Positions 19,747 to 35,506 of a stretch of DNA of 64,000 nt are shown here, piece after piece. Origin of the DNA: Stentor roeselii (lineage: Eukaryota > Ciliophora > Heterotrichea > Heterotrichida > Stentoridae). A program made the translations under genes and the position numbers. The DNA lies in assembly GCA_006503475.1 (NCBI GenBank), contig RSEH01000038.1:1-64000 (forward strand), in the 5' to 3' direction. Numbering within the stretch: the stretch's first letter is position 1; every line of letters begins with the position of its first letter. The notes below the pieces were generated by a model. The model saw nothing but the letters and a program-made list of their open reading frames with translations, was not told where the DNA came from and searched no databases.

Positions 19747-21147
19747 CTAATTGGTAAAGTTCAATAATTTCTTTCTGTATTGACAACAATGTTTCATCAA
19801 TTTTTCTAAACTTTTTCTTGTTAGATACATCAATACTACTATTGCACACAATATGGAGAGGTAGATATAATCAATCATTCTAAACCAAAAGCTTATCTCA
19901 TTATCACTTACCTCATGATATTTAAAAATGTTTCTCTTGATTGAAAACTGTTTGCCACTACCAGTTAGCAATCTTTGGGCTCCCATAATATTATTCCAGC
20001 TACCTCCACAATCTGAAGTAGCAATTCCTAATAATTTAGATTTTCTATCAAAAATGACATCATTTCCTCTCATAAAGGTGGTTCCAAGTGTAGAATGATA
20101 TGCATCTCTATATATGCCTACACAGTAAACATTTGGAGAGTCAGCCCATGAAAAAAGATAACTCTTTGGACTCCATACCAATTCTTGTTCATCAAATAGA
20201 AACTTGATTTTTGGAAAAGATTGAAAAAATATTTCAGAGTTCTCAATGTTCATATTATCATACTCATAGCAATAGTGAGGCTCTCCAGAAACTCTTTTGA
20301 TTTGTCCGAGACACTTTCCTGGAAGGTCGCAAAATTGATCAAACTTATGAAAAAAATTCTCAAAAATCGAATTCTTTAAATAAGAAAAAGTAGTTCCAGA
20401 ATCAATATCTGTATTATGATTCTCAAAATCTTCTTTATGAAGGCCAGTATCAATTTCATCAATCTTTAACCCATGAGGCGAAATCGAATAAAATGGTAAA
20501 CTTTTCATTTTTAACCATTTAATGTCATCCAAATGATGAGTGGAGTTAAACCCTCCAATAGTCATAAAACCTCCTTCATGCGCCATGCAGATCGTGAAAA
20601 CATCATTTTCAATATCATGTTCTTCTAACATAAAATCAACGATAGTCTTCAAAGAACGATGAGAGCCTAGTCCCAAGAGACCATCAGCAAGCTGACTCCT
20701 GATGAGAAAGGTTTCTCTTCGATGACACCCAAAGACCATTGAAACATTGTGAGTGTGGTTTAAATCATCTCCAAATATAACTGAGTCCTCAATAAGAAAT
20801 CCTGTTATTGAACTTCCTTCGCTATAAGCGGTCGAATATCGACATAAGTCATCTGATCCACAATATCCGCACAAACCAACATTCTGACTGCATTTTAGAA
20901 TTTTCGAGGTGGATGACGCAAGATAGTTAAAGTAACTGTCCATGTGCTGCCCGCAGTCAGTGCAGTCTATGCATGGAAATGCTGTTGTTGAAGCTCCTGT
21001 CGTAAGAATCACTGTCTGCTTCACTGGAGGAGTTCCTACCCAAATATCTACGAAATAATAGCCTAGGTCCTGAGTATTACCGAAGATACTAGTGTGAACT
21101 ATGCCTTGGCTGAAGACTCCTAAGAAATAGCAAAAAATTAGAACCAT
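19747..21147 (-). CDS. Pepsin-like aspartic protease homologue, membrane-anchored, first catalytic Asp replaced
   Basis: A 466-residue family A1 protein: N-terminal signal peptide (about 1-14), bilobal pepsin fold with several disulfide cysteines, and a C-terminal membrane segment (about residues 425-445, SILCAIVVLMYL) with a short basic tail. This plan resembles plasmepsin V and BACE-type anchored proteases. The second active-site motif is intact (DIDSGTTFSYL), but the first reads ILTTGAS instead of the usual ILDTGSS, so the catalytic Asp is Thr (codon ACG near 21005). As both aspartates are needed for catalysis in this family, the protein is probably a non-catalytic binding protein. Stop TAG. 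Confidence 0.88.
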   Translation of the reverse strand: MVLIFCYFLGVFSQGIVHTSIFGNTQDLGYYFVDIWVGTPPVKQTVILTTGASTTAFPCIDCTDCGQHMDSYFNYLASSTSKILKCSQNVGLCGYCGSDDLCRYSTAYSEGSSITGFLIEDSVIFGDDLNHTHNVSMVFGCHRRETFLIRSQLADGLLGLGSHRSLKTIVDFMLEEHDIENDVFTICMAHEGGFMTIGGFNSTHHLDDIKWLKMKSLPFYSISPHGLKIDEIDTGLHKEDFENHNTDIDSGTTFSYLKNSIFENFFHKFDQFCDLPGKCLGQIKRVSGEPHYCYEYDNMNIENSEIFFQSFPKIKFLFDEQELVWSPKSYLFSWADSPNVYCVGIYRDAYHSTLGTTFMRGNDVIFDRKSKLLGIATSDCGGSWNNIMGAQRLLTGSGKQFSIKRNIFKYHEVSDNEISFWFRMIDYIYLSILCAIVVLMYLTRKSLEKLMKHCCQYRKKLLNFTN

Positions 21148-24202: not shown

Positions 24203-27200
24203 ATGGAAATTGTAGACATTTCATATAGTTTCAAGGGAAATCTTAGAATAGTAAAAAAGTCTTCAATTTCATATGAAGCCTACTTTGAGTCACTCTCTGG
24301 AGTAAAGAAAAATCTTGACCTTTTAAATTTCTCTGAAAATATTCCTCAGTATCTGCAACATTATTCCCATTCATTTCTCAAAAGAATCATAAAAATAGAC
24401 CTTAGTCAAAAATCAATATACTTTGCACGAGGATTACTAGGAGGAGGAGCTTTTAATTCAAAACACTGCAAATGTTACTGCACAATTGAATGTGAAGGCA
24501 AAAATCCAGGCACTGAGAATGAAATTGTTTCTGATAATTTAAAAAATAATGCTAAAGAAGGGTCAATCATAGATGAAAACTCTTCCCAAGGTTCATCTTT
24601 CGAGCAAACAGTAAATATATCAAAAGCTCCAATTACCGTCCTTACTCAACCTATCGAAAAATCTGAAAAAACTTGTGAAGAAGAGAAAAACGAAGAAAAT
24701 CCAGAATCGCCTTCTGCGAATATCGAAGAACAAAAACAAGAGAAAATAAGCATTCCTAGGCAGGAATCAAAGAAAAATGATCCAGAAAACACAACTAATC
24801 AAACTACCTTCAATGAAAAAAATACAAGTACTTTTAATCAAAGTCATTCATCGAAGAGTATTCAAGAGACCCAAAATGAAAATTTGGAAAAGCCGAAAAG
24901 TGAAAGAAATTCTGATGATGAAAAAAAAATTCATGAAGGAGATCATAAAGAGAATCTGAAGAGCAAGCATCAGCGATTTTCATCAAATACCAGTGAGGGA
25001 ATCAATGAAAAAACAAATGAAGAAAAAATAAATTCTTTGAAAGAGAGTCTTTCATTAAAAAGCATTGAAAAGATTGAAATGGAACAATCGAAAAGTATAA
25101 AAAACAATCCACAAAAAACACACGAATCCTTTTATCAAAGCACCTCATCAAAGAACTTTAGTGATCCTGAAGAGAGTAAAGAAAAGATACCTTTAATTAT
25201 AGCAAAAAAATCGAATGAAGGACCTGAAAAAATAGAAAAAAATCAGAAAAAACCTAAAAGTTCAACTGAGCATTTTTCTTCAAAAACTCAAGAAAACTCA
25301 CAAAAAATCAATAGAAAAGAAAGCAACTCAGAAAATATACCTAAAATTAATTTTCATATACGTAATTATGATGGAGAAAAGATACTAGAACTTGAAAATT
25401 CTGATAAATTTTACCGAAATAATCCAGGGTTTGATAATGAAAATCCTGATAAATTTTACCTAAATAATATGAAATTTTCACATCATAATTTTAATTTTGA
25501 TGTCTTAGAAACTAAACTGCATTTTAAACAATTAACTGACTCAATCCAAGGTGCAGAAAATCAAGATTTGTGCATAGTGTATAAAATTCCTGAAAATAGA
25601 AATCAAAAAATAATAGTCCAAGTTTATCACAAAAATATAGTAATTTGCGATAAAATACATAAAGGGTTAAAAAATTGTGTTGAAAAAGCAAATAATCCGA
25701 ATGCTAGGACTCATGAAAAGTTAAGTGTTGCTGTTGAAAATCACTCCTGTTTACGTATCCATAAAAATATTAAAACAATAATCGAAAATATTTTTAATCC
25801 TAGAATATGGGATAATGGTGTTGTACCCTATGAAATAAGTAATGAATTAGAAAACCTCTATTCAGTTAATCAAAATAATGTTAAAATGGCTGATATCATA
25901 AGGAATGCAATTGATACAATGAATAAAGAAACTATTATAAATTTTAAAGTGCGTACTAATGAAGAGAATTATGTCCTTTTTAATAAAAGTGATGGATGCA
26001 ATTCTTATGTTGGGTGTAGGCGCAAACCTAAACAAATAATAAATATAGCTAATTGGGCTAAAAAAGGGACTGTTATGCATGAAATGATGCATTGTTTAGG
26101 ATTTTCACATGAACATCAAAGAGCTGATAGAATAAAATATATAATCCTAGATGAAAAAGCTATCGAAAAAAAATATAAAAACGATCAAGATAGAGCTAAT
26201 CACAATGTTTATATAATTTCTTCATATGGAATAGGTCCATTTGATTATAAATCAATTTTAAATTATGGACACGGAATGATTAAAGCCATAGAAAAAAATA
26301 AGGATAAGGATAAATTTATTGGCCAAATGCATCGACTTTCATATTTAGACAAAATGAAAATTATATATTTATATGGTCCAAGTAGATGCACTTTTGATGT
26401 ATTTGGAAATATTAAATATTATCAAGAGTGCATTCAATGCTGTGATTGCTACCTTTATACTGGTTATATATGCAAGGAATGCTTTCATAAGCATCATAAG
26501 GGTCATATGACAAAAATCTTTAAATATGAAGAAGTTATGTCAAAAGATATAAAATTTAGTTGCCTTTGTGGGCCAGATCACCCTAAAATTGAGAAAAATA
26601 ACAAAGGTGGAAATATCAAAAAAATAAATAAACCCGAATTAAATTCCAGAGAGAGTGATCAATCACATAAACAAAAAAAAAAAGTAGTCCTTAATATAGA
26701 ATCACAAACTCCAATAACTTGCAATAAAGGTCAACCTGATGATAAAAAAAATGAAGAAAAAAAAGACGAATCAAATTATGGAAGATCTGAAATAATTTTA
26801 GAAACCGACGAAAAAAGTAAAAAACTTAGATCTTCTGAGAGTAAAGATTCAAATTTAGATCCTATTGAAAAATCCCACACTGGAGACGATAAGAAAGAAA
26901 GTTTTGATAAAACAAATTTAAAAAATCCTAAAAGTGATTCTATGGAAAAAAGTAACGAATTTAACAAACAACCTGAAAATAAACGTGAATCTCAAATTGA
27001 TGATCCAAAATCTAAAGCAGATTCTGACCAAGAACAAACTTTTCCAAACCTCAACACAGCCCACAGAGAGGACAACCAAGAATATCTTCAAAAAGTCAAA
27101 AAAGACGAAAAAAAAATTGTTTCCATTATTCTCAACAATGAACCCGAAAATGAATCATTGAGTAATAATCACTGTGAAAACTTTGCTAAACCTCGAAATA

Positions 27201-28135
27201 CACCTTCCTCAGCCTTAAGTCCTCATGAATTGAAAAATTTCAAAACTTTGAACTTTCCAAAAATAAAAAAGTGGCCGAAACTTAAAATTTCTTTTCATAT
27301 CCACGAAAATCTCAGAGACAAACAATCATCAAAAAAAAATCGAAAAATATCAGACATAATAAAAAAATCAATCGAAATCTTCAACTCTGCTTCAATAGTA
27401 AAATTCGAAGAAAACATTGAAAATGAGCGATTTTCAATTCAATTTGAATTCAGCCCAATCAACTCTTCTCACGTCGGCTGCATGTTTCAATCAAAACAGC
27501 CAATAAAAATAGCTGAGTCCGTCACAAAAGGAAGTGTTTTACGTTTGCTGATGACTTGTCTGGGATTTACTTACGAGCATCAACGAATGGATAGAGAAAA
27601 TTATATCACTTTGAATAAGGATACCATTGAAAATGATTTTAAAGTGATTAATAGTGTTGCAGATCAAAATATTTTTGCTTTTACTTCTTTTGGACTAGGC
27701 CCTTTTGATTTTGAATCGATTTTGTTTTTTCCAGGAAAGTATTTCACGGCTTTAGATTTGGGACAACAGAAACTCATGGGACAGAATAAGAAACTTTCTG
27801 AACTTGATAAGAAAAAAATTGAGATTCTTTATGGGAAGAATAAATGCACTTTTGATGTGTTTGGAGAAAAGCCTTTTGGTCAAATTTTATATAAATGTGA
27901 TAATTGCTCTAAGGATGAGGATTTCAGGATGTGTAAAGGTTGCTTCAAACATCATAATAAGGAGCATTCTATTGGTGAATTTTATTCTATTTTTTCTTGT
28001 GATTGTGGAAAGAATAAAAACCATGATAAAGAGTTTATTGAGTTTACTAATGAAACTGTGGGAGATTCTATTTGGGGATGCTTTAGTACTAAACTTGAAA
28101 ATAAAGAGCCAGGAGATGAGTGGAGATATAATTAG
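24203..28135 (+). CDS. Duplicated astacin-like metalloprotease + UBR-box zinc finger protein
   Basis: A 1310-residue protein of novel-looking layout. Residues 1-100: a unique domain with a Cys cluster (KHCKCYCTIEC). About 100-390: a low-complexity E/K/S/N-rich linker. About 535-725: an astacin-type (M12A) domain with VPYEIS, GCNSYVGC and an intact zinc motif, HEMMHCLGFSHEHQR (about 626-640); the Met-turn is altered (SILNY for SIMHY). About 730-792: a UBR-box zinc finger starting CTFDVFG and ending FSCLCG. About 795-1045: a second charged linker. About 1050-1210: a second astacin-like domain whose zinc motif is lost (LRLLMTCLGFTYEHQR). About 1215-1275: a second UBR box, ending FSCDCG. No signal peptide is visible, although astacins are normally secreted, so an intracellular role is suggested. 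UBR boxes read N-terminal residues (N-degrons). Inference: a protease or sensor directed to proteins with particular N-termini. Stop TAG. Confidence 0.85.
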   Translation: MEIVDISYSFKGNLRIVKKSSISYEAYFESLSGVKKNLDLLNFSENIPQYLQHYSHSFLKRIIKIDLSQKSIYFARGLLGGGAFNSKHCKCYCTIECEGKNPGTENEIVSDNLKNNAKEGSIIDENSSQGSSFEQTVNISKAPITVLTQPIEKSEKTCEEEKNEENPESPSANIEEQKQEKISIPRQESKKNDPENTTNQTTFNEKNTSTFNQSHSSKSIQETQNENLEKPKSERNSDDEKKIHEGDHKENLKSKHQRFSSNTSEGINEKTNEEKINSLKESLSLKSIEKIEMEQSKSIKNNPQKTHESFYQSTSSKNFSDPEESKEKIPLIIAKKSNEGPEKIEKNQKKPKSSTEHFSSKTQENSQKINRKESNSENIPKINFHIRNYDGEKILELENSDKFYRNNPGFDNENPDKFYLNNMKFSHHNFNFDVLETKLHFKQLTDSIQGAENQDLCIVYKIPENRNQKIIVQVYHKNIVICDKIHKGLKNCVEKANNPNARTHEKLSVAVENHSCLRIHKNIKTIIENIFNPRIWDNGVVPYEISNELENLYSVNQNNVKMADIIRNAIDTMNKETIINFKVRTNEENYVLFNKSDGCNSYVGCRRKPKQIINIANWAKKGTVMHEMMHCLGFSHEHQRADRIKYIILDEKAIEKKYKNDQDRANHNVYIISSYGIGPFDYKSILNYGHGMIKAIEKNKDKDKFIGQMHRLSYLDKMKIIYLYGPSRCTFDVFGNIKYYQECIQCCDCYLYTGYICKECFHKHHKGHMTKIFKYEEVMSKDIKFSCLCGPDHPKIEKNNKGGNIKKINKPELNSRESDQSHKQKKKVVLNIESQTPITCNKGQPDDKKNEEKKDESNYGRSEIILETDEKSKKLRSSESKDSNLDPIEKSHTGDDKKESFDKTNLKNPKSDSMEKSNEFNKQPENKRESQIDDPKSKADSDQEQTFPNLNTAHREDNQEYLQKVKKDEKKIVSIILNNEPENESLSNNHCENFAKPRNTPSSALSPHELKNFKTLNFPKIKKWPKLKISFHIHENLRDKQSSKKNRKISDIIKKSIEIFNSASIVKFEENIENERFSIQFEFSPINSSHVGCMFQSKQPIKIAESVTKGSVLRLLMTCLGFTYEHQRMDRENYITLNKDTIENDFKVINSVADQNIFAFTSFGLGPFDFESILFFPGKYFTALDLGQQKLMGQNKKLSELDKKKIEILYGKNKCTFDVFGEKPFGQILYKCDNCSKDEDFRMCKGCFKHHNKEHSIGEFYSIFSCDCGKNKNHDKEFIEFTNETVGDSIWGCFSTKLENKEPGDEWRYN

Positions 28136-28586: not shown

Positions 28587-29039
28587 CTAGATAAAAGAAA
28601 ATCTTGCAGTCCAATCTCTAGCAATTTTATTGAACATCATTCTATCATTCAAAAACATCTCAGCTATTTCTGGCACTAATGGTTCATCAGAATGAGGATC
28701 AGCCAATAAAGAGATAATAAACAATAGAACCTTTTGTATAGTACATGCCGGTACCCAGAAGTCTTTCAAGATATCTTTCGTCAAGCATAAAGTTCCATCT
28801 GAGTTCACATTTGGATGAAAAATTTTGGTTTTAAATGAAATCTTGGGAGGCTTGAATGGATAATGATTAGGTATTTCAATGCTAAGCAAAAAGATGCCTT
28901 CTTCATAAGGGGAGTCTTTAGGTCCTTTGATTTTTGCAGTCCATTTGAAGAGGTTGAATTCATCATCAAGGCGAACGTTGATTAAGTGATGATTTAATCT
29001 CAGATCAGAAAATTCTTTAGTAATTCTTTGTTGTGACAT
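28587..29039 (-). CDS. Ubiquitin-conjugating enzyme E2, UBE2D-like
   Basis: A 150-residue UBC-fold protein, close to the whole length of class I E2 enzymes. It carries the YPFKPPKI strand, the HPNV motif, and the catalytic Cys in GTLCL, followed by DPHSDEPLVPEIAEMF and the C-terminal helix. It accepts ubiquitin from E1 as a thioester and passes it to substrates with an E3. Compared with UBE2D, two residues (TK) are inserted just after the catalytic CL, and sequence between residues 25 and 35 is divergent, so it is a derived member. It converges on the UBR-box gene at 24203-28135. That is suggestive, but a shared pathway is not shown. Stop TAG. Confidence 0.9.
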   Translation of the reverse strand: MSQQRITKEFSDLRLNHHLINVRLDDEFNLFKWTAKIKGPKDSPYEEGIFLLSIEIPNHYPFKPPKISFKTKIFHPNVNSDGTLCLTKDILKDFWVPACTIQKVLLFIISLLADPHSDEPLVPEIAEMFLNDRMMFNKIARDWTARFSFI

Positions 29040-30005
29040 AATTTAAATGGATTTCTAAAGCATTGATTAATTAAACAAAAGATTGAGTGATTCAGCAGAT
29101 ATTTCAAAATAAAATCTATTATCATAATAACTTAACACTAAGAGCTTAAGATTGTAAAAGAATATTATAAACTAACTTATGCTTAAGATTCATAGTTTAT
29201 ATCAAGTTTTTCATTAAAGAATCTTTAATTGGTATTGAATTACCTTAGCTAGACCTTGGTAGAGGCATCTTTTGATTCTAATCAAATATTATTTTTTGCT
29301 ATAAGTGAATACTTTATCAAATATTCCTAAAATTTAGAATCTTTAATTGGTATTGAATTACCTTAGCTAGATTCTTGGTAGATGCAGTATCTGATTCTAA
29401 CAAAATATCACTTGGTTGCTATAAGTGAATACTTTATCAAATATTCCTGATATTTAAATTTCTTTGGTCAAAGGGTTAATTGAAATATTTTCAGAAAAAG
29501 TTTGCTTCAACTTAAAAAAATCTAATGCTTAAGATAATAGTAATAACTTTTATTTAACTCATTAGTAAATAACTTACCAAGACAATTATAAAAATATATA
29601 CAGAATTCAATGATCTAAAGCTTTTCTCATCCAAAATAGGTTAATCTTTTCAATCAAACCACTTAAAGAAAATAAAAAATCTCATGATGGGTATTTTTGT
29701 TCATATTTATTATGTTTAGCTTGGCGAATAAATGGTAAAATCCATAAATTGGTTTAAAATTTTCAAAATTTCCTTGTTAAACCTCGAGTGAAACTAATTT
29801 TAAATCAAATCGTTCATCGAATTATAACAAATTAAATGCCTGAACCTCATTTGCTCTAATTGAGAAAAAGATTCTGCTGAAAAATTTACTTTAAACTCAA
29901 AGTATCTACTAATCCAAGAAAAATCAAAAAAAAGTAAGTTTTGATAGTCTTCTAGATCATTCTAAAAGAAAAAAATGAATTTCAACAAATTAGACTAAGA
30001 TAATA
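29040..30005. other. 965-bp gap with a 118-bp tandem duplication
   Basis: AT-rich DNA between the divergent E2 and surface-protein genes. The only structure seen is the tandem repeat at 29219-29455. Confidence 0.5.
29219..29455 (+). repeat. Two tandem copies of a 118-bp unit
   Basis: Units at 29219-29336 and 29337-29455. Both begin GAATCTTTAATTGGTATTG and contain ACCTTAGCTAGA, TTGGTAGA.GCA and GCTATAAGTGAATACTTTAT. They differ at about a dozen positions. No open frame. Confidence 0.8.
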
Positions 30006-33000
30006 ATGGTGATTATTCTTTTTTGGTTTTTTGTGTCAGGAAAATATTTAGAGTACCAACTCTCAAAGAACTACGGGCAGATAGTTTATGATTATTCAGG
30101 GAATAATCGTAATGGAATTAACGGAGTTGATATTATGATTGATAATAGAGACTGCATACCAACAGACCGAGGATGGTACTTGAATGACTTGAGTTGTATC
30201 ACTTTCGCTCAATTTAATCTACCTCATCCTATCTCAATCATTATCTGGGGTAATTTTGATAACAATATTTATGATATGGGGAGAATTTTCATTCTAAATG
30301 ATTTTATGTACCCGTATTTTGCAATAAGTAGAAGAAACGATGACTCAACAGTATGGGTGGACTATAATCAAGTGTATTTCAAGGCTCGAAAAAATTTATT
30401 GTCTAAACGTAAGAATTATTCAGAAACTTGGGTCATGGTGATTGCGCAAATGAATGAAGGAACTTTCTCTCTTTTCATCAACAATGAAGTAGCTATAAGT
30501 TTTCCTTATGATTCAAACGCATTCAAAGGCTTATATGCTTATAGATCTCTAATAGGTGGTAGCAAATCCTCCTATGGAATAATTGGTTATGTTTGGTATG
30601 TATCAATTTTAACTGAAATTAACGTAGCTGATCGTTTTTTAAGTACATTTAGTTCAAATTGCTTTCTTGGATCTTGTGATAGCTGTAACCCGAGCTTTAA
30701 CATTCCAGGACAAGGTACAGGGTGTGGCCCAAAAGTGTTGGATTATACAAAAGATTCAAACAATCAAGACTGCCCGATTGGCTATGGATGTAAAGGATCG
30801 TTGATACTAAATTGCTCCTGCTCATCAAAAAGTTGTGAAATAAATGAAAACACTGAATGCTCTTGCATCCAAATAAACACTCTAACTCCATCTCAAGATA
30901 ATTGTTATTGTACCAACGGTCAAGAAATCTGTTGTTCACAAGAATTCAGCACCCTAATCAACGGAAGCTGCGTATGCATCGATGGCTACTACACTATTCA
31001 CTCAGGTACCAACTTCATCTGTGAAAAATGCATGCCTGAATGCGAAAAATGCACTGAAAGTAGTTCCTGCACCTCATGCTACTCCAAATACTCAATCCTA
31101 AACAACGGCAGATGTTTTTGTCCTTCCGGAACTTTCGATTATTTAAAATCAGGAAAAAAGAACTGTTCGAACTGTTCAAATGAATGTGAAACTTGTGAAA
31201 ATGCTTCAACATGCTTATCATGTAAAGACCCGAATTCTGTCCTTAAAAACAACAAATGTCTCTGTAAAGAAGGATATTTTGAAAGAAAAACAGAAGAAGT
31301 CTTTCAGTCCTGCTTGAAATGTAATGAATCTTGCGCGAAGTGCTCAGAACTTAACACCTGCTTAGAATGTCCTTCAAAAAATCACATCTTAAAAGATGGA
31401 ACCTGCATCTGTCCTGAAGGCTTCTGGAAAAATTCAAGTAAATCATGTGAACCTTGCACTGATCTCTGCAAGAGTTGCTCTTCATTCACATCTTGTTTGA
31501 AGTGTTCTGAAGAAGATCTTAAGTTGGTTGATGGAAAATGCATTTATTGTAATGAGACATGCGGTTCATGTAATTCTAATCAAGAGTGTACTTCATGTGT
31601 CAATGAAACTTATGAACTTCTTCCAGGAGGAGTTTGTTTTCTCAAATGTTTGAACAATATGGAAAGAATTGATGGAAAATGCGGATGTCTTTCAGGGTTT
31701 CAAGTTAAAAACAATGTATGCAAAAGAATTCACTTTACGATGGATATTAAAGTAAATAAAAAAAATCATCTTTTGTTATCATTCAACGAAAGCCTTCTTA
31801 GAACTTTGAAAAAGAAAAGTGTTAAAATTGAACTGGAGAACTTTGGAAAACTTGACTTCAAATTATTTACCAAAAATAATAGAGATTTTATTGTTGCACT
31901 TAAAATTAACCAGTCAATTGCGAATGGGGAGAAAGTTTCAATTGAACTGAAACCGACTATCTTCAGTCATCGTAATTCTACTCTAAAAATATATCATTAT
32001 TCAGCTTTTTTGAATGAATTTGAGTTTATTCAGCAGGACACTCAAGAGTTTATTAAAAAATTTCAAACTGTTTCACGTTCTTTAGTTGCTGCAGCATTTG
32101 CATTCTCTTTTATTTCTAATCCTGCTGCTGCTTGGGCTATGATCGGGACTTTGCAGTTGTTGCCTTATATTCCTTTAAGTGAGAATTATGATGATTTAGT
32201 TTCTAAAACTTTTTTGATTTCTGCTGGAAGTTTTAATGTCCTTCCGAATTTAATGACTTATATGTTTTCAGATAATTCTTCATCAGCGCCTTATAAACAA
32301 GCGAGATCTATTGGTATTGATACTTCTGTGTTTTGGATAAATATTGGAGAGCTTGTCTTACCGCTGATGGTAATTGTTTCTTTTTGGCCAGTTATTTTTC
32401 TATCATCAAGACTTAACTATAAACCAGTGACAAAAAAACTGGAAAAAGTATTAAAAAACTACAAATTCAGTGTTTTTATCCGATTCTGGATTCAATCTCA
32501 TCTCGATATAGGTATTTATTCAATAATAAACCTGAAATCAGTAACAATCACTTAGTCTTTGAATCATTCTCCAGTCCAATATTACATAAATCAATGTTTT
32601 TCACTCATATCCGTGGTAATAATCAAATAGTTCCTATTCGCAGTAGCTCCATTTTATTTTTATATACTTTTATTCTATTTCTACAAAAAAATCGAGATAA
32701 AAAACATCTCAACTCTAGAAAAATACGGTTCTTTGTTCACCGAATTCAAAAATGATAAAGGACTAATCAGTATCTTATTTTACGTTCTATATTGTTTGAG
32801 AAGGACTCAGTTTTTGCTTACCCAAATCTTCTTAAATGTCTCAGGATTAGCTCAAATCTTGGTAAATTTAATCATCGGGTGTTGCATGCTCGCTTATTTG
32901 GCTTATTATCGACCCTTTAAGAACTCTTTGGTACTTATATCGAATTTCGCATCTGAACTCTTATTTTCATTGATTTATATTTCTTTTCTGATTTTTACTT

Positions 33001-34192: not shown

Positions 34193-35506
34193 TTAAGCTA
34201 AGTCTTTTCCTTGAATAAAGGCCATGAACATCTCGTATCCTTCGACAGGTTTCCATTGAATGCACATGTGTCCAGCGCCTCGGATGGTGGAAAAGTGGAC
34301 GTTGTTGCCAAGTTTCCAGTAAAAACCTCCGACTTGGCCTTGGCTCATCCATTCTCGCCAGGAAACGGAAGTCTCTAGGCCCAGAAGGTTCAGCCAGTTG
34401 ATTGAACCGAGAGTTGACACTGAGGAGTCTGTGTCCCCGCTGTAAATCCAAATTCGAATACCACTGCTTATTAGACTTGGGTAGAAGTAAAAACTACCAA
34501 CGTTCACGTCTGTGAAGTAGTTTAAATCGGTACATTCGTCCCAGGCTCCAATTGTCGAGTTTATGTTTAATGCGTTTCTTACAGTCGGCATATTCAGATA
34601 CTTAGTCAATCCATTATCAGGCACACAATTAAGAATTCCCGTTAAAACATTAGCATTCCACCTTGCTTTATGATGTCCAGTTCCAAAATCAGGATGAATG
34701 CAAGGTCTATAAATATCATAATAGTTGATATTAGTAAACAAACTCAACATCTTCTGATACAAAGTCACACAATACCCCTGCAAATTGAAGTCAATCGAGC
34801 AGTTCAAATTAACCCAAGGGAAGTAAATGCTATCGTCAATAAGCTGATGCCAGTAAAGAAACTCAGGCCAGACTGAGTCAGTATCGACGCTCCACAAAGT
34901 GACTCCATTTCCCACCATGATTCCCTTCAAGTTAATCGTCGTATCAACACCTTTTTTGTTGTTATCTTGAATGAAATAAGCCAGACTAGGCACATAAATC
35001 CCTGCGTAACTTTCTCCTGAGATGTAAAAGTCGTTGTTGGAAAATGAGGGGAAGTATTTGAAGAACTGAAGCAATGCTTGCAAGTTGTCTGATGCGGTTT
35101 GGTTGTCGTTTGTATTGTTGTTTGATAGAGAACCTAGGATTGAATAACCTACTCCGGCTGGAGCCTCGATGTATAACATTGATGCGTTTTTATTCCAGGT
35201 GTTCGGGTTCACGTAGGCGGAGGAGTTGAACTCGTCGAAGATGTATGGACCGTTTTCCATAAAGGCGCCTTCCATTGATGAACACCCTGGACCTCCGTTT
35301 AGCCATAGGACCACCGGATCTGTTGTTGGATTGTTCTGGCTGTAAACGAACAGGTAGTGAAGTTGCTTACCCTTTGAGTTAGGAATATCTAGATAGCCTG
35401 AGTACATCGGAGTCTTCAATGGTGGAAACTTCGGCAAAGATTTCACCTGATGACTAGCTGGCTGAGCATAAACTGTAATCAGCAAATGTGATAGAAGACA
35501 CAACAT
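34193..35506 (-). CDS. Serine carboxypeptidase (S10 family)
   Basis: A 437-residue secreted or lysosomal enzyme that removes C-terminal residues from peptides at acid pH. A signal peptide (1-14, ending VYA) precedes the alpha/beta-hydrolase fold. The family block LWLNGGPGCSSMEGAF forms the substrate and oxyanion region. The catalytic triad is visible: Ser in ISGESYAG, Asp in YSGDTDSSV and His in GAGHMC. Length is typical. Its 5' end is 18 bp from the start of the divergent gene at 35525, so the promoters must be tiny or shared. Stop TAA. Confidence 0.95.
   Translation of the reverse strand: MLCLLSHLLITVYAQPASHQVKSLPKFPPLKTPMYSGYLDIPNSKGKQLHYLFVYSQNNPTTDPVVLWLNGGPGCSSMEGAFMENGPYIFDEFNSSAYVNPNTWNKNASMLYIEAPAGVGYSILGSLSNNNTNDNQTASDNLQALLQFFKYFPSFSNNDFYISGESYAGIYVPSLAYFIQDNNKKGVDTTINLKGIMVGNGVTLWSVDTDSVWPEFLYWHQLIDDSIYFPWVNLNCSIDFNLQGYCVTLYQKMLSLFTNINYYDIYRPCIHPDFGTGHHKARWNANVLTGILNCVPDNGLTKYLNMPTVRNALNINSTIGAWDECTDLNYFTDVNVGSFYFYPSLISSGIRIWIYSGDTDSSVSTLGSINWLNLLGLETSVSWREWMSQGQVGGFYWKLGNNVHFSTIRGAGHMCIQWKPVEGYEMFMAFIQGKDLA

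Follow-up and report, generated by a model that had tools for sequence, protein, structure and literature searches.

An internally duplicated astacin-UBR protein of Stentor roeselii with one intact and one destroyed protease site

Layout of the astacin-UBR gene

We analysed a 64,000-nucleotide stretch of Stentor roeselii DNA (contig RSEH01000038.1, positions 1 to 64,000, GenBank assembly GCA_006503475.1; the window), in which a forward-strand gene at 24203-28135 encodes a 1310-residue protein that combines astacin-type protease domains with UBR-type zinc fingers. The gene is a single unbroken open reading frame (ORF) with TAG as its stop. In a Pfam search of the whole protein, Astacin (E = 8.4e-49) and zf-UBR (E = 3.7e-8, with the best match at residues 1223-1275) were the sole families at E ≤ 10, each in two stretches, and no RING, HECT or other ubiquitin ligase (E3) module was found. 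The domain order is astacin-UBR-linker-astacin-UBR.

The N-terminal region (residues 1-110, 24203-24532) belongs to no family and has cysteines at residues 89, 91, 93 and 97. It is followed by a low-complexity linker rich in Lys, Glu, Asn, Ser, Gln and Asp (about residues 111-430, 24533-25492), delimited by composition in 50-residue blocks. Module 1 consists of astacin domain 1 (residues 536-724, 25808-26374) and UBR-like box 1 (about residues 729-795, 26387-26587). A second low-complexity linker, also recognised by composition (about residues 796-1015, 26588-27247), leads to module 2, which consists of astacin domain 2 (residues 1023-1210, 27269-27832) and UBR box 2 (residues 1215-1293, 27845-28081). 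All of these features are on the forward strand. In both modules the finger comes directly after the protease domain (LYGPSRCTFDVFG and LYGKNKCTFDVFG), with the motif CTFDVFG starting at residue 729 and again at residue 1215; in an AlphaFold2 (AF2) model of module 1, finger 1 begins five residues past the last astacin helix.

The two modules are 38% identical over a 300-column alignment, and the astacin-UBR unit was therefore most likely doubled by internal duplication. The modules also pair in a phylogenetic tree (support 94/87). The first-pass annotation, made from the sequence alone, had described an astacin-UBR pair repeated in one protein, and the single reading frame, the doubled Pfam matches and the identity between the modules bear this out. 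It had also raised the prospect of a splice site parting protease from finger; a scan for introns of the type GTAA-8 bases-TAG, the one type covered, found none inside or beside the ORF.

Astacin 1 has the complete HExxHxxGxxH motif (HEMMHCLGFSHEHQR, residues 626-640, 26078-26122; HEMMH starts at residue 626), with H626, E627, H630 and H636 in place, and it retains the family Glu E637 and the zinc-ligand Tyr688, the last residue of the sequence SILNY (residues 684-688, 26252-26266). The catalytic motif of astacin 2 (LRLLMTCLGFTYEHQR, residues 1113-1128, 27539-27586) is destroyed. Arg, Leu, Thr and Tyr stand in the columns of H626, E627, H630 and H636, and Phe stands in the column of the zinc Tyr, so that neither the catalytic Glu nor any of the three zinc histidines is left and only the family Glu is kept. 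These columns are nearly invariant among 40 comparison astacins, 39 from prokaryote records and one (L034) from a contig classified as viral. The H626, H630 and H636 columns are His in 40 of 40, the E627 column is Glu in 39 and Ala in one, and the zinc Tyr column is Tyr in 39 of 40. An intact motif in duplicate had been annotated, which is correct for module 1 and wrong for module 2.

The AF2 model of module 1, calculated from a 42-sequence alignment, has 137 residues with a predicted local distance difference test score (pLDDT) of at least 90, and stretches below 50 are confined to the finger and the tail. Foldseek superposed the model on the BMP1 protease domain (3edh) with a TMt of 0.79 over 208 columns. 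As modelled, astacin 1 is a full astacin fold with an intact catalytic site. Module 2 matches PF01400 with 67.1 bits (cut-off 22.5) and, judged by its residues, is a dead protease, or pseudo-protease. Module 1 resembles the astacin peptidases of family M12A (astacin, BMP1/tolloid, the meprins and bacterial astacins) in profile, fold, the HExxHxxGxxHE motif and the zinc Tyr. The protein differs from them in having no signal peptide, a Leu in the Met-turn, no usual disulphide, a UBR-type box straight after the protease domain and a second domain that is dead.

The UBR-type fingers

Finger 2 by itself scores 36.2 bits against zf-UBR (PF02207; cut-off 25.2). Its nearest relative among solved structures is the UBR4 box (8j9q/8j9r, E = 0.0023), followed with weaker values by plant-type boxes named PRT6 and by the UBR1 and FBXO11 boxes. 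Finger 1 by itself matches no Pfam family and no UBR chain in the PDB at E ≤ 10. Against a hidden Markov model (HMM) of the 11 other boxes from the genome it scores 28.3 bits, where the best of 2000 shuffles reaches 10.6, and with finger 2 left out of the model it scores 22.5 bits (best of 2000 shuffles 9.0). Against an HMM built only from the boxes of four further UBR proteins in this genome the score is 12.5 bits, and one of 2000 shuffles is higher (12.8). Finger 1 also passes the UBR-type Cys/His spacing signature. Finger 1 is probably a UBR relative by descent, tied to the family mainly through the related boxes of this genome; the direct case is weak. The view that both Cys-rich modules are UBR boxes is upheld for finger 2, which is above the Pfam cut-off, but finger 1 has no Pfam match alone. 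A ZZ finger was considered as another identity and rejected, in agreement with the preference for UBR in the first-pass annotation: neither finger matches a ZZ family at E ≤ 10, and the HERC2 ZZ is found by finger 2 only at E = 0.38.

Box 2 shares with the UBR4 box the CTF start and the CDCG motif. It differs in having Ser for the Phe before CDCG, Pro opposite F1671 and a His pair one residue wider. Finger 1 differs from UBR4 in the loss of the Asp of this motif, and the protein as a whole differs in that no E3 module was found in it. HHxGH or HHxKH recurs in finger 1 and in the first finger of each of three paralogous genes on C508 (described below); here His takes the place of a Cys that UBR4 and three further boxes from this genome have. 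Finger 2 thus surpasses finger 1 in sequence match and in pocket, but its zinc ligands are less regular.

In UBR2 and UBR4 two elements hold the amino group of the ligand, the Asp of the CDCG motif (D150 and D1715, respectively) and the main chain of the residue that precedes the first Cys (PMC10687169). UBR1 and UBR2 select Arg through D153, and UBR4 leaves the counterpart of D153 unused and holds the side chain by F1671 and F1713 (PMC10687169). The amino-group Asp is kept in finger 2 (CDCG at residues 1266-1269, Asp at 1267) and is absent from finger 1 (CLCG). The six C508 boxes read CFCG, CLCG, CGCG, CGCD, CACG and CSCG, so that among the eight boxes encoded by the four astacin-UBR genes box 2 alone keeps it. 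Three of the four other boxes in the genome also have the Asp (C34, C38 and C446); the fourth, C56, reads CNCT.

Classical reading of Arg by these fingers is unlikely because Pro (finger 1) and Lys (finger 2) occupy the position of the Arg-selecting Asp. Binding of an N-terminus by finger 2 in a UBR4-like mode is possible. Since only finger 2 retains the amino-group Asp and only astacin 1 a catalytic site, the halves seem to have decayed in complementary ways. Two working pairs of protease and reader, as first proposed, are contradicted by the dead protease of module 2 and by the missing Asp of finger 1. The related proposal that the protein is directed by N-terminal residues finds some support in the Asp of finger 2, but none in finger 1, and the Arg-selecting Asp is absent from both. 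An arginyl-transferase is encoded in the genome.

Astacin relatives and cellular location

We identified nine astacin domains in eight genes in the whole genome (44.4 Mb, 522 contigs), a lower bound from an exon-by-exon search in which only the best candidates were scored. Besides the window gene there are a three-gene cluster on C508 (L002, L003, L005) and four single finger-less genes on C212, C505, C325 and C129. Each C508 gene has one astacin domain and two UBR-like fingers; one of them runs over two frames, owing to either an intron or a frameshift. Only one of the three passes zf-UBR (30.5 bits), and the fingers of the other two, which have no match, were called by alignment and spacing. 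All seven paralogous astacin domains are above the Pfam Astacin cut-off, and all seven retain the three zinc histidines and have lost the catalytic Glu, with HE replaced by HN, HI and HI in the C508 cluster, by HQ in C212, C505 and C129, and by HL in C325. We also considered homology between the region before astacin 1 and the pre-astacin regions of six paralogues and rejected it, as shuffled sequences scored higher.

The finger-less paralogues (L004, L006, L007 and L020) start with MGACIS, MGQCSC, MGNHSS and MGNCTT. All four starts fit the N-myristoylation pattern PS00008, in what we take to be its standard form, and Gly is the second residue in only one of the 22 window ORFs checked. An N-myristoyltransferase is encoded in the genome. 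These four proteins are candidate membrane-anchored, zinc-binding pseudo-proteases. Like the metallo-pseudopeptidases (PMC11266112), the paralogues and module 2 have lost catalytic residues and kept the fold; in the portion of that review available to us, astacins are mentioned once, in passing, in the section on ADAMs. We found no account, in the literature on astacins and pseudoproteases, of astacins that have lost catalysis and kept their zinc ligands, and the present family supplies a set of them.

A tree of the nine genome domains and 24 of 80 prokaryotic loci placed the nine on one side of a branch with support 97/92. The C508 and MG-starting genes were grouped (99/96), with the window modules outside that group; the tree has long branches, one truncated row and no animal sequences. 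With the prokaryotes as outgroup, it tentatively suggests that the astacin-UBR layout predates the split of the window modules from the C508/MG group, that the MG genes lost their fingers and that loss of catalysis happened at least twice.

No signal peptide was found in the window protein by hydropathy, the only measure applied: the best 12-residue value in the first 40 residues is 0.47, compared with N-terminal values of 2.28-2.63 in three other window ORFs (those of an aspartyl protease and a serine carboxypeptidase, and a third). The annotated absence of a signal peptide is thereby supported. The highest 19-residue hydropathy in the entire protein is 1.24. The disulphide of the catalytic domain, which is present in 29 of the 40 comparison astacins, is broken in both modules, as module 1 keeps C599 with Ala619 in the partner column and module 2 has lost both cysteines. 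The cytosol is the most likely location, because of the lack of a hydrophobic N-terminus, the broken disulphides and the MG starts of the relatives.

A first scan of genome contigs with both modules gave no relative. A second, with astacin 1 and L034 as query, gave 103 loci, of which the best 80 were used; 39 of these and L034 make up the 40-astacin alignment. Motifs were counted in 72 of the 80 (leaving out L053, L058, L064, L066, L081, L091, L101 and L104). The spaced motif is present in 71, with Glu in 70 and Ala in L036, and there is no such motif in L093; the count is biased in that one search pattern contains HE. L036 is a planctomycete astacin with HALMH and a possible bacterial pseudo-astacin. 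The Cys/His signature of a UBR box was found beside bacterial astacins in none of 76 loci, with a control that finds 8 of 12 boxes of the S. roeselii genome and misses finger 2, which shows that its sensitivity is limited. Among viral contigs, the two modules found the single astacin L034, and finger 2 found no relative. The L034 ORF (2758-3942) has a lipoprotein-like start and adjoins a long ORF that resembles, by eye, a tape-measure protein. Thirteen of 72,556 plasmid records match, and the five among the matches listed all fall within residues 527-725 of the protein.

The combination of astacin and UBR domains is not first seen here. In the legend to their Fig. 1, Gomis-Ruth and Stocker 2023 (PMC9848320) name ZF-UBR as one of the domains that accompany astacin domains, contrary to the first-pass annotation, which knew of no described fusion. 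The proteins to which that legend refers are like ours in having both kinds of domain in one protein; the legend names the finger and is the single place in the available text where we found it. The same authors count fewer than 400 astacins scattered over the non-holozoan eukaryotes, Alveolata included, and propose transfer (PMC9848320). We found no functional account of astacin-UBR proteins in the literature and, among the matches listed, no paper with ciliate astacins as the subject of its title.

Possible function and surroundings of the gene

We tentatively read the protein as a cytosolic zinc endopeptidase of the astacin type, built from a duplicated astacin-UBR unit, in which the work is divided between the halves; we regard this as plausible, though far from secure. 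The first half, which keeps the cutting site, would cut, and the second would hold the client. In the second half, the UBR4-like box, mounted on a non-cutting protease domain, would bind a protein N-terminus, so that this half perhaps docks clients by their exposed N-termini. The flexible linker of about 220 residues would then give astacin 1 the reach to cleave the tethered client.

UBR boxes are known chiefly as the reading modules of ubiquitin ligases. If the proposed division of labour is true, fusing such a box to a protease domain links recognition of a protein's beginning to cleavage in place of ubiquitination, and the duplicated protein is a natural test, with the scissors kept in one half and the grip residue in the other. 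A more ambitious form of the proposal is distinctly unlikely: the protein would be an N-recognin with its own scissors, reading N-termini with one half and cutting with the other in a ubiquitin-free branch of the N-degron pathway, alongside its membrane-anchored, non-cutting pseudo-astacin kin.

Several observations weigh against the division of labour. The Met-turn of astacin 1 is Leu (SILNY, compared with SIMHY), which also occurs in one of the 40 comparison astacins (L035, SILHY) together with an intact catalytic motif. A prosegment with an Asp or Cys switch was not found, as residues 1-521 match no Pfam family (best E = 0.74). Finger 2 has Lys at the D153 position and Ser in place of F1713; F1671 is faced by Pro, with Phe at the next position. 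Finger 2 fails the UBR-type Cys/His signature in its last His pair, HxxxH and not HxxH, and zinc site 1 of box 2 may therefore be altered. The amino-group Asp is not universal outside the astacin-UBR family either, since the canonical-looking C56 box does without it. Structure prediction, which had been suggested for both modules, confirmed the astacin fold of module 1 but left the finger below a pLDDT of 50 in two AF2 predictions. The catalytic Glu, finally, is missing in eight of the nine astacin domains of the genome, and selection in this family therefore seems mostly to favour non-cutting forms. That most of the family has lost catalysis is the strongest argument against a working protease, since the protein may instead serve as a scaffold that depends on zinc.

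Such a scaffold would bind partners through its astacin clefts and UBR-type fingers, and the site of module 1 would be a relic or a low-turnover site for client binding. We consider this doubtful, and a serious competitor. Seven of the eight domains without the catalytic Glu keep all three zinc histidines, which is the pattern that a zinc site retained without cutting would give, and the Leu of the module 1 Met-turn fits as well. A site no longer in use ought to decay, however, and module 1 retains E627, E637, Tyr688 and the histidines although its sister module has lost H, E, H and H.

It is also unlikely, in our estimate, that the fingers are UBR-derived interaction modules indifferent to N-termini, serving instead to position the protease at an internal motif or at a second protein. 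The absence of the amino-group Asp from seven of the eight boxes, the HHxGH/HHxKH sequences of finger 1 and the first C508 fingers, with His for Cys, and the irregular His spacing of box 2 could all be accounted for in this way. The CDCG of box 2, shared with the C34, C38 and C446 boxes of the genome, speaks against it.

A secreted or extrusome digestive astacin would be in keeping with the predatory habit of many ciliates and with the extracellular location of animal astacins (PMC9848320). It would have to leave the cell by an unconventional route and is very unlikely: the protein has no signal peptide, yet two other proteases in the window have hydrophobic N-termini, the usual disulphide is lost and four paralogues have MG starts. 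An assembly chimaera or a mis-read gene is hardly credible, given the unbroken frame at 24203-28135 and the recurrence of the astacin-then-finger junction in the independent C508 cluster.

Tail to tail with the astacin-UBR gene lies a gene for a ubiquitin-conjugating enzyme (28587-29039, reverse strand; UQ_con, E = 5.3e-43). This neighbour is of interest given the UBR boxes, and its position is probably due to chance. The aspartyl protease (19747-21147) and the serine carboxypeptidase of family S10 (34193-35506), both with hydrophobic N-termini, are encoded nearby on the reverse strand.

Introns of 15 nucleotides occur in heterotrich ciliates. The window has two 15-nucleotide GTAA...TAG intron candidates, at 32541-32555 and 32616-32630 on the forward strand, the first of which holds the stop of an 849-residue ORF (30006-32555); this length class is not enriched relative to other lengths in the window. 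The stops of 23 window ORFs (22 of the 26 listed ORFs of at least 200 residues, and the ubiquitin-conjugating enzyme) are TAG in 12, TAA in 11 and TGA in none. Stop usage and intron candidates incline us towards a heterotrich with the standard genetic code, the code reported for Stentor and Climacostomum (PMC10942620). Between genes, at 29218-29456, a unit of just under 120 bases is imperfectly repeated, in two direct copies head to tail; the copies align in three gap-free segments of 36, 40 and 41 bases (100, 78 and 95% alike) at a spacing of 118-120.

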